Positions 54,514-64,000 of a stretch of DNA of 64,000 nt are shown here, one piece after another. Source of the stretch: Epilithonimonas sp. JDS (GTDB lineage Bacteria > Bacteroidota > Bacteroidia > Flavobacteriales > Weeksellaceae); assembly GCF_021261315.1 (NCBI RefSeq), contig NZ_JAJSAX010000002.1:620001-684000 (forward strand). Direction: 5' to 3'. The notes under the pieces are model-generated. The model had not been told where the DNA came from and searched no databases. It worked only from the letters and a program-made list of their open reading frames with translations. Each line of letters starts with the position of its first letter. Within the stretch, counting starts at the first letter, position 1. The position numbers and the translations under genes are program-made.

Positions 54514-54553
54514 GTTCTTTTGTCTTGACACAAAAGAACCAAAAAGTCAAGAC
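54514..54553. repeat. hairpin with loop-complementary tail
   Basis: GTTCTTTTGT (54514-54523) pairs perfectly with ACAAAAGAAC (54530-54539) around CTTGAC. GTCTTGAC (54522-54529) is complementary to GTCAAGAC (54546-54553), allowing a pseudoknot or an alternative helix. Together with element D it accounts for the structured part of the 522-bp fabH-corA gap; the first 95 bp show nothing. Confidence 0.55.
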
Positions 54554-56744: not shown

Positions 56745-56810
56745 AATACTTTTATTTTTAATTACCTTTCGCTACAATATAATATTTGAATTGTTTCATT
56801 TTCAGGTAGG
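56745..56810 (-). ncRNA. candidate tracrRNA (anti-repeat next to the array)
   Basis: Plus-strand TGAATTGTTTCATTTTCAGG (56787 onward) is a degenerate copy of the first half of the CRISPR repeat, ending about 3 bp before repeat 1, not one spacer length away. Read on the minus strand it would pair with the crRNA repeat over about 22 bp with one bulge and one mismatch. The downstream tail has only a weak AAAATA/TATTTT hairpin and no clear nexus, and I see no minus-strand promoter. The cas9-cas1-cas2-array-tracr order matches Campylobacter. A decayed repeat is the alternative. Confidence 0.4.
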
Positions 56811-56813
56811 AAA

Positions 56814-59709
56814 GTTGTGAATTGCTTTCATTTTTAAGTATCTTTGAGATACAACACAACAATTATCCATAGGTTATAAAGTAATCAAAAGTTGTGAATT
56901 GCTTTCATTTTTAAGTATCTTTGAGATACAACACAACAATTATCCATAGGTTATAAAGTAATCAAAAGTTGTGAATTGCTTTCATTTTTAAGTATCTTTG
57001 AGATACAACACAACGGAACGTCTACCGTTGCTCCTTGTGCATTCGTTGTGAATTGCTTTCATTTTTAAGTATCTTTGAGATACAACACAACTTCCTTCTT
57101 TGGCTATTTTGCGAGCAATCAGTTGTGAATTGCTTTCATTTTTAAGTATCTTTGAGATACAACACAACTTGGAATTTCATTGTGATGCAGCGGCTTCAGT
57201 TGTGAATTGCTTTCATTTTTAAGTATCTTTGAGATACAACACAACTTTTTACTTTGATTATATAAAGTCCTTAAAGTTGTGAATTGCTTTCATTTTTAAG
57301 TATCTTTGAGATACAACACAACATAATCAGAATGAGGGAGGCAATGGCATCAGTTGTGAATTGCTTTCATTTTTAAGTATCTTTGAGATACAACACAACA
57401 ACTTGTGTTTTCTTCCGTTTGAAATATCCGTTGTGAATTGCTTTCATTTTTAAGTATCTTTGAGATACAACACAACTTTTTATTATCAGTCGAAACACAA
57501 CCACTAGTTGTGAATTGCTTTCATTTTTAAGTATCTTTGAGATACAACACAACCAGACGCCCAATATTGTTCGTTTGCAGGGTGTTGTGAATTGCTTTCA
57601 TTTTTAAGTATCTTTGAGATACAACACAACAAATCAGTACCTTTTAAAATCGGCCTGTTTGTTGTGAATTGCTTTCATTTTTAAGTATCTTTGAGATACA
57701 ACACAACTTTTATTCAAGACAATAAGTATAACCGTGTGTTGTGAATTGCTTTCATTTTTAAGTATCTTTGAGATACAACACAACTGACCACTTTCTTTCT
57801 TCAACTATCCAGTCGTTGTGAATTGCTTTCATTTTTAAGTATCTTTGAGATACAACACAACCACTACTTATAGAGCAAAGATAAAAACCTTGTTGTGAAT
57901 TGCTTTCATTTTTAAGTATCTTTGAGATACAACACAACCTTGTTGCGTAAAACCAATTAAATAAGTGTGTTGTGAATTGCTTTCATTTTTAAGTATCTTT
58001 GAGATACAACACAACCATTACAAATTTTTATTCATAACAATAATTGTTGTGAATTGCTTTCATTTTTAAGTATCTTTGAGATACAACACAACCCTCGTCA
58101 AATTTCAGGAATTTCTTCTTTAGTTGTGAATTGCTTTCATTTTTAAGTATCTTTGAGATACAACACAACCCCGCTCGTTTCGGAGTGCAAGTCTGGAGTG
58201 TTGTGAATTGCTTTCATTTTTAAGTATCTTTGAGATACAACACAACGCAATACTACATGCTACTCACAAACATAGTGTTGTGAATTGCTTTCATTTTTAA
58301 GTATCTTTGAGATACAACACAACTATTCTAATGCCGTTACCTTTATTGAATCCGTTGTGAATTGCTTTCATTTTTAAGTATCTTTGAGATACAACACAAC
58401 TAAACTAATGTATTGCCTAACGCATCGTCAGTTGTGAATTGCTTTCATTTTTAAGTATCTTTGAGATACAACACAACTTCTTCTACGATGATGAATACAA
58501 TTTAGGTGTTGTGAATTGCTTTCATTTTTAAGTATCTTTGAGATACAACACAACTTCAAAACCGTCTACCATTTCCGTCTACGGGTTGTGAATTGCTTTC
58601 ATTTTTAAGTATCTTTGAGATACAACACAACCTCCGGAGATTATAAAATCACAACGGAATAGTTGTGAATTGCTTTCATTTTTAAGTATCTTTGAGATAC
58701 AACACAACGAAGTCATCAAAGATAAGCAAGCGCCAAAGGTTGTGAATTGCTTTCATTTTTAAGTATCTTTGAGATACAACACAACCCTTTTACATTAACA
58801 ATAATCTCGTAGATTGTTGTGAATTGCTTTCATTTTTAAGTATCTTTGAGATACAACACAACCGGCAAACCCTGGCGTGCCTTTCGTATGGGGTTGTGAA
58901 TTGCTTTCATTTTTAAGTATCTTTGAGATACAACACAACTGTTATCGGTGAACCAACTACAGTTGAATTGTTGTGAATTGCTTTCATTTTTAAGTATCTT
59001 TGAGATACAACACAACTAGGTTCGTTTTGTGATGAAAGTTCATCTTGTTGTGAATTGCTTTCATTTTTAAGTATCTTTGAGATACAACACAACTCGTTGT
59101 TTAATAGTATATCATACCATCCGGTTGTGAATTGCTTTCATTTTTAAGTATCTTTGAGATACAACACAACCCGAAAGTATCTTTAGTATCGATTTCGATA
59201 GTTGTGAATTGCTTTCATTTTTAAGTATCTTTGAGATACAACACAACTGAGTTAACGGATATGATAAATAGTAATAAGTTGTGAATTGCTTTCATTTTTA
59301 AGTATCTTTGAGATACAACACAACGAAATTGGATTGAGGAATCCAAACCATTTAGTTGTGAATTGCTTTCATTTTTAAGTATCTTTGAGATACAACACAA
59401 CGACAAACAGCGTATTATCGACGCTGAGACCGTTGTGAATTGCTTTCATTTTTAAGTATCTTTGAGATACAACACAACGAAGCCTTACAGGAGGCGGTGA
59501 GCAAACCCGTTGTGAATTGCTTTCATTTTTAAGTATCTTTGAGATACAACACAACGAAATCAAGAAAGACCCTATTTCAGCGATGGTTGTGAATTGCTTT
59601 CATTTTTAAGTATCTTTGAGATACAACACAACTTTCTGATTACGCAAAATACGCCTATGGTGGTTGTGAATTGCTTTCATTTTTAAGTATCTTTGAGATA
59701 CAACACAAC
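56814..59709 (+). CRISPR. type II-C CRISPR array, 38 repeats and 37 spacers
   Basis: The 47-bp repeat starts GTTGTGAATTGCTTTC and ends GAGATACAACACAAC; its period is 77 bp exactly from 56814 to the last repeat at 59663, so all spacers are 30 bp. The repeats look identical, with no degenerate end copy in phase. The first two spacers (56861 and 56938) are identical. The ends GTTGTG/CACAAC and an internal GTATCT-TTG-AGATAC are inverted repeats. TATCTTTG inside each repeat is a plus-strand -7 box. The plus orientation is inferred from this box and from the GTTG start shared with other type II repeats. Confidence 0.97.
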
Positions 59710-59713
59710 CTCA

Positions 59714-59748
59714 AAAAATAATCTACTGATTTTCAGTAGATTATTTTT
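59714..59748. terminator. strong hairpin terminator between array and cas2
   Basis: AAAAATAATCTACTG pairs perfectly with CAGTAGATTATTTTT (15 bp) around ATTTT. It begins 5 bp after the last repeat, ends 19 bp before the cas2 stop and has T runs in both directions, so it can end both the array transcript and the cas operon. Confidence 0.85.
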
Positions 59749-59766
59749 GATTTTAGGATTCAGAAT

Positions 59767-60108
<342 letters not shown>

Positions 60109-60156: not shown

Positions 60157-61050
60157 TTATGTAAACTCAGGATAAGAAATCAATCGTTTTTCTCCTGTGT
60201 AGCATTTGTAAAGCGAAGTAGCAGTTGTTTTTACTGCCACCAACAATGGTCTTGTTTTACCGTCTATCAGCACATCTTTGGTTGCGATTTGCAGGATGTG
60301 TGATTTGAATTCTTTTGTCAGTTCCTCAATATTCGGATTCTTTGTCAACCAATCCATTACCAACAAATCTACAAATGGTCGATAAGGTTCCATCAAATCA
60401 TCGGCGAGACAATAGGGATTGTATTTGTTTTTATGAAAAATCCCCAGCACCGGAAGCAAACCTGTTTCTACAATCGACCTTGCTACGATGCTTCTGAGAA
60501 CAGCATATCCAAAGTTGAAGAACTGATTCGGTGAATCGCCGAAACGCTGTCTGAGAAAATCCAAACTGATGAGATACTTCCAGTAATGCTGAGCCGCAAT
60601 CCCTTCCATATTGGTAACATCGCCGCTTTTTACATTGCTTTGATAATCCAGCATTGGTTCAAAATAATTCCCTAACCTTCTCAGTACCTCTTTTTGATTT
60701 TCAATTTTACATTCGATGGTTTGTTTCCAGATTTGTTTTTTGAGAGGTTCGCTGGCTTCCAATTGGTCTTTCACCCGGTCAGAATGTTCGGTGTGTCCAT
60801 AAAGCGGAAGCATAATTCCGTGAGGTAAATGATGAGAATCGCAACTGACCACGACGACATTATTCCCCATCATTTTTTGAATCAGCTGATGGGAAATCGT
60901 AATCTGAAAATGGTCCAACATCAACAACCCCAAATCTTCCACCGGAACTTTACCTTTCATCTCATTGGAGGAAGGTTCCATAATGTACATTTGCTCGTCT
61001 TTGAGCTTGAGGTAGGCAGGATTGCCGATGTAGATGGAGCGGGTTATCAT
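60157..61050 (-). CDS. cas1: CRISPR-associated endonuclease Cas1, type II
   Basis: Catalytic subunit of the spacer integrase. 297 residues; active-site residues are Glu149 (NMEGIAAQHYW), His206 (LGIFHKNKYNP) and Glu221 (LADDLMEPYRP), at nearly the same positions as in Streptococcus type II Cas1. 48 bp upstream of cas2. No csn2 or cas4 follows, which with Cas9 defines subtype II-C. Confidence 0.96.
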   Translation of the reverse strand: MITRSIYIGNPAYLKLKDEQMYIMEPSSNEMKGKVPVEDLGLLMLDHFQITISHQLIQKMMGNNVVVVSCDSHHLPHGIMLPLYGHTEHSDRVKDQLEASEPLKKQIWKQTIECKIENQKEVLRRLGNYFEPMLDYQSNVKSGDVTNMEGIAAQHYWKYLISLDFLRQRFGDSPNQFFNFGYAVLRSIVARSIVETGLLPVLGIFHKNKYNPYCLADDLMEPYRPFVDLLVMDWLTKNPNIEELTKEFKSHILQIATKDVLIDGKTRPLLVAVKTTATSLYKCYTGEKRLISYPEFT

Positions 61051-61062
61051 AGCTACTTAGTT

Positions 61063-64000
61063 TTAATATTCTCCAATGTGAACTATTTTACCTAAGTGGT
61101 TTAGTCTTACTTTCAGAATATCTCTAATTCCATTTAAGCCTTCTCTTTTCCAAGTAATACCCTTCAATAGTAAATTATCCTCAACAGTAGTTTCTAAATG
61201 ATGTCTGAAAAAATAATCTTTAATTGTAAACTTCTGCACCCTAAACATATTCTTAGAAATCAAACTCAAGTTCTTTTCATCTAACAAATCAATTTCCTTT
61301 GGATTAAAATCGTCTGAAGGAAAAAGAAACATTTCATTTTGTTTCATAGTAAAAAGAAACTTCCATCCTAAACCTTGATTATAATCTCTATCAATAATCG
61401 AAAGTCCTTGATTCACTCTTTCAACTGCTTCATAAAAACTTACAACCCGCTCTTGCAAATTACCCGCTTCATCTTCGTAAATAGCTACGTGATGATTGTT
61501 TCCAGTACTTACAAAATCCACAGGTATTTTTTTACCATTTTCATCTAGAATTTCTTTTCCAAGATGGTCTTTTTTGTAATGCAAAGTTTCTGCATTATTG
61601 ATTCCCGTTATCGTTACTGTTTTAATGGCAATTCCTTTTGATGCATTCAACCAAATCGGATTCTTTTCTAAATCAGAAAAAGCTTCTTTGGCATTTCCAT
61701 TAAATGCATCCAAACGTGCTTTTAAATTTTCCTTTACACCTTTATCAATAATTTTATCAAGATTTTTGTAATCTTTAAAGTTTTCCGGATTTACTGCTTT
61801 TCTTATGGTGTAACCGACCTCATACCAAGCCAGGATTACACTTTCAGGAACTTGGTCTGTTTTTTCTTTATCCAGATAAATTGGACTTTTAGCTAAAACA
61901 TTTTTGCCTGTAAATGCTTTTTTAGCATCTCCACTAGATTCTTTCAATCTTTCCAATAAAGCATTTCTGAATTTTTCATTCTGAACTTTATAAACGGTCT
62001 CCAAGTCGAATTTTCCTGATACTTTTTCTTCTTTAGTTTTAAGGAATTTTGCACTGCCATAGATGGTTTCTTTGTGAAGTTGCCCTCGTGGTGTTAATAC
62101 AACTTTTGAAACTAATCCACCATTTGTTTTGGTTTTATTAATGTTCTTGGTAACAACTTTATTTTTAGCTTTATGAGAAATTAACACTTCCTCTAAATGC
62201 TTTTTTGCATCAATTCTGAAGTTATGAATTGGCTCTATAAACCTTCTCTGTTTTGAACCATTTTTCTTTTCAAATACTTTAGTAATAAGATTTTCAATGT
62301 TTGAAATTACCTTATGCTGTTTGTGATTCTCGTCTTTTCTTGCATTCAGATAATTCAAATACTGAATATGATTATGTGTAGTAAAAGCCACGGTGAGAGC
62401 GTCCATAGCGTGATGACGATGGTCATTTCTTTTGGTCCAGTCGATGATTCTTTGCTTCTCTTCTCCTTTAGAATTAATAACCGTTTCCGCTAAACCTAAT
62501 TTTCTGTATTTTTCCAAATTAAGTTCCTTCATTGTATTCACAAGATTCCAATCTTCACGGAGCTTATCGGTAATCCTTCCTGTCGTAGGAACTACAGAAT
62601 TTGTAATTCCAAAAAGAATTTCTTTTGCCTTTTTAGCGATATACTGTGTATTTCGCAAATCCCTTTCTATAAACCCATCTCCTATTTCAATTCCTTTTTT
62701 CTGAAGTTTTTCATATTTAGCCTTTGTAATTCCTCCCTTGTCATAGAGTTCTTTGATGAGATTGAGGAATTTATCTAATCTTTCCTTTCCTTCAATTTCC
62801 AAATAATCAAAAGCTGTAAAATTTCCTTTTTTCAGATTTGCACCTCTCGGAACTAAAACTTTATTAGAAAAACTATCATCAAAGAATCTTGATTGCGGAA
62901 TAATATGGTCGATATCATATTTATCCGTAAAAAGCTCATCTCTCTTGATTTGTACATCAGTGTATAAATCTTTAAACAGATTTTTTTCCAATTCCAAATA
63001 CAATTTATATCGAATAAGGTCATTTCTGGAAGGGAATTTTATTCCAAATTCTCTTTGTAAGACTTCTGCATATTTCTGATGCTGTATTGTCGCTTTACTA
63101 ATTTCAGAAGTCATATTGGCGCGCTCCTCAGCATTATTTTTCAGTTCTCTTGCAAGCTCAATTCTTATTTCGTCTGGTCTTCCGTATTCTTTAGATACTT
63201 CATTGACTAAATTTATCATTTGATTCAGAATTTTTTCGACCACAGGGTTTCTTAGAGAATTTTTAGGAAGAATTTCTAATTGCTCTTTCAAAACTCTATT
63301 CACGAGTTGTTCTTTAGTCAATGAATTTTTTGAATGATTATATCCTGCTAGATGACTAGCATCACTATATTTATGTTCTTTAACGTATGGATATATCCTT
63401 CGCATCGCCTTAGAACTCAAGCTTCCATAATCTTGAGGAAAACCAATTTCCGCCAATACCTTTGAATGTTCTTTTTTAAAGCCAAATTTTTTCTCTAAAA
63501 GCTCATATAGTTTTTCGTTTCCAGAAGGAGAATCATCACCTTCGTAAGAATACAACAGATGCCAAAGCTGATAGGAACTTTGCTTCTCAAAATCAGTTCC
63601 ATCCAATTCTGGATTGAACTCTAATATGGATGTATTAATTCCTAACTCAGATAGTTTTTCTTTGACAAATAGTTTTATGATTTCAGCAGAAGAGTGAATT
63701 TTAGATACTTTAATTTCATCCTCAATAGTCAGTTTAAACTCTTTCGGATACTCTATTCCTTCGTTGGCAATAATTTTCAGAAAAGCAGTGTATAGATTCT
63801 CATTCGTATTGTTACCTTCAATATCTTTGAAATTATTTTTCCATTCTTTACCGGAATAACCCATAATATCTAAAACTTCCTTTGCAGAAAGTCTTCCTTT
63901 GATATTAACTTCATCAAAAATTGATTGTTTAAACTCCAAATCAACTGGAAAAACCTCTTTGGATTCTAAGTTTTGAAACTGCAAATTATTCAGAACCTGC
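61063..64000 (-). CDS. cas9: type II-C Cas9 nuclease, 5' end cut by the window
   Basis: RNA-guided DNA endonuclease. The frame stays open through the right edge (the apparent start at 63984 is TTG inside the frame), so the N-terminal RuvC-I, the arginine bridge helix and part of the recognition lobe are missing. Visible: RuvC-II IRIELARELKNN (Glu codon about 63158), HNH YDIDHIIPQSRFFDDSFSNK (catalytic His codon 62905-62907), RuvC-III RHHAMDALTVAF (about 62401-62415), then a long C-terminal PAM-interacting region. At least 978 residues are in the window; flavobacterial relatives have about 1,400. 12 bp before cas1. Confidence 0.96.
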   Translation of the reverse strand, partial: QVLNNLQFQNLESKEVFPVDLEFKQSIFDEVNIKGRLSAKEVLDIMGYSGKEWKNNFKDIEGNNTNENLYTAFLKIIANEGIEYPKEFKLTIEDEIKVSKIHSSAEIIKLFVKEKLSELGINTSILEFNPELDGTDFEKQSSYQLWHLLYSYEGDDSPSGNEKLYELLEKKFGFKKEHSKVLAEIGFPQDYGSLSSKAMRRIYPYVKEHKYSDASHLAGYNHSKNSLTKEQLVNRVLKEQLEILPKNSLRNPVVEKILNQMINLVNEVSKEYGRPDEIRIELARELKNNAEERANMTSEISKATIQHQKYAEVLQREFGIKFPSRNDLIRYKLYLELEKNLFKDLYTDVQIKRDELFTDKYDIDHIIPQSRFFDDSFSNKVLVPRGANLKKGNFTAFDYLEIEGKERLDKFLNLIKELYDKGGITKAKYEKLQKKGIEIGDGFIERDLRNTQYIAKKAKEILFGITNSVVPTTGRITDKLREDWNLVNTMKELNLEKYRKLGLAETVINSKGEEKQRIIDWTKRNDHRHHAMDALTVAFTTHNHIQYLNYLNARKDENHKQHKVISNIENLITKVFEKKNGSKQRRFIEPIHNFRIDAKKHLEEVLISHKAKNKVVTKNINKTKTNGGLVSKVVLTPRGQLHKETIYGSAKFLKTKEEKVSGKFDLETVYKVQNEKFRNALLERLKESSGDAKKAFTGKNVLAKSPIYLDKEKTDQVPESVILAWYEVGYTIRKAVNPENFKDYKNLDKIIDKGVKENLKARLDAFNGNAKEAFSDLEKNPIWLNASKGIAIKTVTITGINNAETLHYKKDHLGKEILDENGKKIPVDFVSTGNNHHVAIYEDEAGNLQERVVSFYEAVERVNQGLSIIDRDYNQGLGWKFLFTMKQNEMFLFPSDDFNPKEIDLLDEKNLSLISKNMFRVQKFTIKDYFFRHHLETTVEDNLLLKGITWKREGLNGIRDILKVRLNHLGKIVHIGEY

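Follow-up and report, generated by a model that had tools for sequence, protein, structure and literature searches.

Are the guide RNAs of Bacteroidota type II-C CRISPR arrays started inside the array, from a promoter borne by each repeat? The question is raised by a 64,000-nt stretch of Epilithonimonas sp. JDS (hereafter the window), in which the CRISPR repeat contains TAnnTTTG, the -7 promoter consensus of Bacteroidota. Repeat-encoded promoters in the II-C arrays of Neisseria meningitidis and Campylobacter jejuni were reportedly described in 2013, by Zhang and by Dugar. Passages of PMC5006608 and PMC12080349 likewise cite them for these two species. The answer for Bacteroidota that seems quite probable, judging from sequence comparisons, is that each repeat contains a promoter recognised by the main sigma factor of the phylum, and that guides would start inside repeats.

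The locus and its reading direction

The window locus is a type II-C CRISPR-Cas9 system of Bacteroidota (Table 1). The genes cas9, cas1 and cas2 stand together with a Cas1 of type II (TIGR01865, TIGR03639 and TIGR01573), and the assignment to II-C follows from the scanned neighbouring genes, since neither csn2 (II-A) nor cas4 (II-B) was present among the eight ORFs scanned, five ahead of the array in the window and three beyond cas9 (scan matches: Exo_endo_phos, CorA, ACP_syn_III, OsmC, MarR, DUF6266, GIY-YIG and Tex). Completed in the whole genome, the cas9 open frame codes for 1397 aa, and when two repeats with their spacers were searched against the whole genome, the window array was the sole match. 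Its 37 spacers comprise 36 distinct ones: spacers 1 and 2 (56861-56890 and 56938-56967), the two oldest and cas2-distal, are identical, the whole repeat-spacer unit having been duplicated.

Table 1. Features of the window locus and predicted transcript starts (window positions, except for the tracrRNA gene)
Feature	Position	Strand	Remarks
CRISPR array	56814..59709	+	38 letter-identical 47-nt repeats, 37 spacers each 30 nt; inferred crRNA strand
Candidate -33 TTG, repeat positions 2-4	56815..56817	+	21 nt before box; identical place in every repeat
-7 box TATCTTTG, repeat 1	56839..56846	+	one per repeat (38/38), at 77-bp intervals
Predicted first transcript start	56851	+	repeat position 38; ten nt ahead of spacer 1
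Predicted last transcript start	59700	+	repeat position 38; box at -12 to -5 geometry
Terminator-like hairpin	59711..59750	+	between last repeat and cas2; z -7.12
cas2	59767..60108	-	TIGR01573, PF09827; convergent with array
cas1, type II	60157..61050	-	TIGR03639, 289.4 bits (cut-off 120)
cas9	61063..64000	-	TIGR01865; frame runs past window end
tracrRNA gene	~1843-1930 of L010		beyond window end, upstream of cas9; antirepeat GAAAGCAATTCACAA

The antirepeat GAAAGCAATTCACAA forms a 15-letter match to repeat positions 2-16, outside of which the box falls, and is followed by a hairpin-like stretch and a T-run. Because it pairs with the repeat of the plus strand, crRNA is placed on that strand, running toward cas2. 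Among sampled loci, repeats were oriented according to their likeness to GTTGTGATTTGCTTTC, and the result was then compared with the cas1 side at all 122 loci with arrays; the array lay beyond cas2, with its crRNA strand facing the cas genes, in every one (122/122). Since in Riemerella new spacers are inserted between cas2 and the array (passages of PMC6008519), and crRNA runs toward cas2, transcription would proceed from old to new spacers.

The hairpin between the array and cas2 is strong and nearly symmetric, with A- and T-runs (0/200 shuffles fold as well), and is therefore silent on direction; it could stop transcription from both sides, inside the acquisition leader. Of 122 loci, 67 have a terminator-like hairpin where the array ends toward cas2 (shuffle 15.2); upstream of the array such hairpins show no excess (15/106, shuffle 14.6).

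The box in the window repeat

As the original prediction had it, the exact box TATCTTTG stands in each repeat, at positions 26-33 in 38/38 copies, so that every repeat shows the promoter consensus on its crRNA strand; no TAnnTT occurs on the other strand of the window repeat. On the plus strand between 56701 and 56860, the box of repeat 1 is the sole exact TAnnTTTG. How unusual is such a match? In the 60.9 kb of the window outside the array, exact TAnnTTTG occurs 81 times over the two strands, and about 0.027 would be expected by chance in 40 positions of one strand at this background. As the 38 copies are non-independent, one match is mildly unusual and weak evidence alone; comparison is therefore needed, and the argument draws its strength from conservation across other genomes.

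Two further features had been claimed. The TTGs said to lie 15 or 22 bp upstream are present, at repeat positions 9-11 and 2-4 with 14 and 21 nt between TTG and TA, respectively, and their support as a -33 element is weak. The TTG-looped palindrome (GTATCT-TTG-AGATAC) exists in the window repeat and is not generally conserved: as a key feature it was tried and dropped, since the best perfect arm across 118 repeats exceeds shuffles modestly, the mean fold z is -0.82 and its place varies. The window repeat alone folds little better than its shuffles (z -0.84).

Conservation in other Bacteroidota

Three sets of loci were compared. The first comprised 60 type II Cas1 loci (394 Bacteroidota genomes, 59 of them matching, giving 59 stretches plus the window), the second 80 loci from the family of the window (162/320 genomes with a match), hand-picked for spread over genera among the listed places, and the third 80 named loci. 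Arrays were found at 56 first-set, 66 family-set and 63 named loci; loci where the finder returned no array (4/60 in the first set and 14/80 in the family set) were excluded, and 4/187 loci with truncated or oddly bounded repeats were omitted from the count of long and short repeats. Long repeats are those of 44-50 nt (118 distinct). L134 and L152 were scored as short and are probably long ones trimmed by the finder, given their spacers of 41 and 44 nt.

Do other flavobacterial and Bacteroidota II-C repeats keep the box? TAnnTT occurs at positions 21-34 in 110 of the 118 distinct long repeats (missing in 8), and exact TAnnTTTG in 47/118; at positions 22-34, TAnnTT is missing in 13/24 short repeats. 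The combination TTG-N17-22-TAnnTT is present on the crRNA strand in 65 of the 74 distinct long repeats of the first two sets and on the other strand in 11/74 (shuffle mean 5.4). When the repeats were thinned to 15 dissimilar ones, 10 of them had TAnnTT between 22 and 28, against a mean of 1.6 and a maximum of 7 in 2000 shuffles, and when thinned to 5, 3 did (shuffle mean 0.5, maximum 3). When XYnnZW patterns were ranked de novo in the thinned repeats, TAnnTT came third of 256 at one threshold, below TCnnTG (which overlaps TATCTTTG) and CTnnGG, and at the harsher threshold (5 repeats) it was not in the best eight.

L232 and L281 (a genome titled Eubacteriales and one of its phylum) have Bacteroidota-type long repeats with TATCTTTG, which points to mis-binned or transferred sequences.

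Control sequences

Is TAnnTTTG simply what A+T-rich repeats of this phylum contain, and does it mark known kinds of promoter? None of 37 distinct repeats beside I-B-/I-C-type Cas1 from the same phylum carried it on either strand, against 0.7 expected from shuffles; this control is lenient, about two fifths of these repeats being G+C-rich (arrays in 49/60 loci). Type VI-B arrays, which could have served to control for a motif of Cas1-Cas2, were set aside as too few (Cas13b in 2/375 genomes, one array).

The positive control came from tracrRNA genes, where exact TAnnTTTG occurs in 103/135 distinct upstream regions (shuffle mean 6.9, maximum 16). In these 103 boxes the gap between TTG and TA was 19 in 16 counts, 20 in 12 and also 6 in 16, while a gap of 21 was found three times and one of 14 twice. 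Of the two candidate -33 elements of the window repeat, the one nearer to the 19-20 peak of the tracrRNA genes is the TTG at 2-4, with its gap of 21, and not that at 9-11 (gap 14). The -33 element is uncertain; whatever it does, the TTG at 2-4 is invariant in almost every repeat. The putative tracrRNA box of the window locus (TACATTTG) lies 5 nt before the antirepeat and 17 nt after a TTG, and this tracrRNA may begin directly with its pairing part. At 23/125 loci the repeat has TTCG and the tracrRNA TTTG; repeat boxes are often weaker than tracrRNA boxes, which may reflect the dozens of promoters in a row.

Alternative explanations

A chance match in an A+T-rich repeat, retained by common descent, would draw on the relatedness of the sampled loci and on the fairly frequent occurrence of TAnnTT by chance (shuffle mean 36/74 long repeats); it is nevertheless very improbable in view of the position, the strand, the sharp end of conservation, the thinning test and the column changes on the Cas1 tree. 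One MAFFT alignment of all long repeats seemingly shifted the box in some rows, and its per-column counts were discarded; ungapped 47-nt repeats from the window's family were used instead (42 near the window, 29 distinct). In these, T26, A27, C29, T30, T31 and G33 underwent zero changes on the Cas1 tree and T28 three, while ten flanking columns (18-20, 23, 25, 34 and 38-41) changed 9-16 times each. The same columns bear on another alternative, also unlikely, in which the TATCTTnGnGAT block is non-transcriptional (a Cas1-Cas2 insertion site, an RNA hairpin or a Cas9 contact) and the promoter match a by-product. T32, inside the consensus, changed 14 times, whereas T22, G35 and A36, outside it, are unchanged, as are several end letters; G35 and A36, directly after the box, are invariant in 42/42 window-like repeats and lie outside any promoter consensus. 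The invariance of T22, C29, G35 and A36 means that some other constraint exists, and together with the changes of T32 it is evidence against a pure promoter reading within the window's clade, where short stems also lie over the box. Outside the family, the columns read otherwise. The box is found there in 52/60 distinct long repeats, and, with the TA and TT columns fixed by the line-up of rows so that only other columns are informative, TAnnTT is followed by T in 41/52 and then by G or A in 50/52, box position 4 is not kept (C in 26/52), and the nine columns following the box hold 0.02-0.20 bits, conservation ending at its last letter. The hairpin version would further have to accommodate best stems of modest excess and variable location, and the insertion-site version the VI-B array L348 (n=1), which shares GTTGTG/ACAAC ends with the II-C repeat L042 of the same genome and lacks TAnnTTTG (it has TAnnTT further upstream), whereas L042 carries TATCTTTG.

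Alternatively, guides could come from a single long precursor that starts at an outside promoter and is processed solely by RNase III together with tracrRNA, with the box in the repeat inert or minor. This is the standard course in type II-A. For Riemerella anatipestifer, passages of PMC5006608 predict promoters in the cas2-side leader. The window has TAnnTT near-matches before the array (56747-56763), and a TTG placed 17-22 nt before TAnnTTTG is slightly frequent ahead of the oldest repeat (4/104 loci against 1.3), with 1/121 against 0.5 in the cas2-side leader. TAnnTTTG alone, however, is not clearly enriched in either flank: the 150 nt before the oldest repeat contain it at 14/104 loci (shuffle mean 11.0), and the cas2-side leader has it at 2/121 in the orientation that points into the array (shuffle 6.8), and a promoter in that leader would drive the strand that fails to pair with tracrRNA. 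We consider such a precursor quite unlikely, and promoters within the repeats the better explanation.

How repeat-borne promoters might work

What we infer about box usage, a -33 element, the point of initiation and RNA processing runs as follows. The -7 box would be TATCTTTG at 26-33, with the TTG at 2-4 perhaps as the -33 element (TTG/TTTG in Bacteroidota promoters; for johnsoniae, passages of PMC7366714). Initiation by RNA polymerase would be expected near repeat position 38, with transcription heading toward cas2, because the F. psychrophilum promoter box spans -12 to -5 (passages of PMC9723704); this replaces the start at about 7 nt before the spacer given by the original prediction with one at about 10 nt. 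Each transcript would open with ACAACACAAC (some ten repeat letters), followed by the full 30-nt spacer and the next repeat, whose letters 2-16 would pair with tracrRNA. No stop signal was seen inside the repeat-spacer unit; transcripts would thus continue to the hairpin before cas2, and their 3' ends must be cut. Individual transcription of crRNAs, as originally proposed, is accordingly possible for their 5' ends and not for the whole molecule.

The position of the box in other repeats suggests a further, more tentative model. In long repeats it is mostly at 23-28. Among short Bacteroidota repeats, 6/25 distinct ones have TAnnTT at 31, and seven more distinct ones from the first two sets have GAnnTT there, four of them of the Flavobacterium-like GTTGTGGTTTGATTAAAG class. 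Outside Bacteroidota, nine II-C arrays with 36-nt repeats (Pigmentibacter, Ilyobacter, Azospirillum, Tistrella, Limnohabitans, Subdoligranulum and three from the phylum of a MAG titled Eubacteriales) carry TAnnnT exactly at positions 31-36 of the repeat, read on the strand that faces the cas genes (9/9), and none of the nine contains TAnnTTTG. They remain from a sample of 17 loci after removal of two from Bacteroidota, three without arrays, two II-A-like ones (of other polarity) and L281, for its Bacteroidota-type repeat. It is conceivable, though on balance doubtful, that two registers of the -7 box (starting at 23-28, mostly 24 or 26, or at 31-32) set the start of each guide. The registers would be 5-7 nt apart, with the box 18-23 nt behind the TTG at 2-4 or 19-20 nt behind that at 9-11; these two TTGs lie 7 nt apart, and either box place gives a gap of about 18-23. 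In the long-repeat register the start would fall within the repeat and the whole 30-nt spacer would be kept, and in the short-repeat register it would fall about 6 nt inside the spacer, leaving 24 nt. A guide part of 24 nt is known from Neisseria. The box letters would vary with the sigma factor that the host phylum has, and with many co-directed promoters the newest spacers, beside cas2, would be transcribed most. The 13 changes of state on the tree are few, and with the weak TTG evidence they make the two-register model suggestive.

Relation to known systems and implications

Repeat promoters in II-C systems being already known, the novelty seems to lie in a -7 box shared across the phylum and in the two registers of that box. 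The window array resembles those of Neisseria and Campylobacter in its type (II-C), in having a promoter element per repeat, and in putative starts inside the array directed toward its spacer-gaining end; it differs in that the element is the Bacteroidota TAnnTTTG from position 26 of a 47-nt repeat, so that the start falls inside the repeat.

Closer relatives share the phylum. For the II-C arrays of F. columnare and F. psychrophilum, a repeat promoter has been proposed from a TTG in passages of PMC8092290 and PMC10309648, which name the TTG alone in the repeat and TAnnTTTG for cas9; phylum, direction and the proposal itself agree with the present reading. Eight RNA-seq reads of F. columnare run within the array toward the leader (passages of PMC8092290). 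Repeats of both species presumably belong to the 36-nt class, with GATATT at 31-36 in their relatives sampled here; for F. psychrophilum the short class is suggested by a TTG reported 35 bp before each spacer. If so, the in vitro preference of F. psychrophilum Fp2Cas9 for 24-26-nt spacers, with which it cuts best (passages of PMC12609912), would be what the short register predicts.

The CRISPR1 locus of R. anatipestifer is likewise II-C, with spacer entry between cas2 and the array, and its repeats are reported to be 47 bp (passages of PMC5006608 and PMC6008519). Passages of PMC5006608 describe these repeats as lacking promoters, yet the 46-nt repeat of Riemerella CCUG25054 (L200) has TATCTTTG at position 25. 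In the passages of the literature searched, TAnnTTTG is not named inside CRISPR repeats. The -7 promoter reading of the original prediction gains comparative evidence, and on the RNA side no crRNA starts are mapped for Bacteroidota in the passages seen of PMC5006608, PMC6008519, PMC8092290 and PMC12080349.

If the promoter reading is true, per-repeat promoters would be widespread in Bacteroidota II-C arrays, in the phylum's own promoter letters. The reading direction of such arrays would be settled and the leader-promoter picture in Riemerella revised, the Cas9s of Bacteroidota would receive guides with testable 5' ends, and the transfer of II-C arrays between phyla may need repeats to be rewritten.

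Apart from the array, an intergenic inverted repeat (TTCTTTTGT...ACAAAAGAA) at 54515-54538 of the window could be a small dispersed element.
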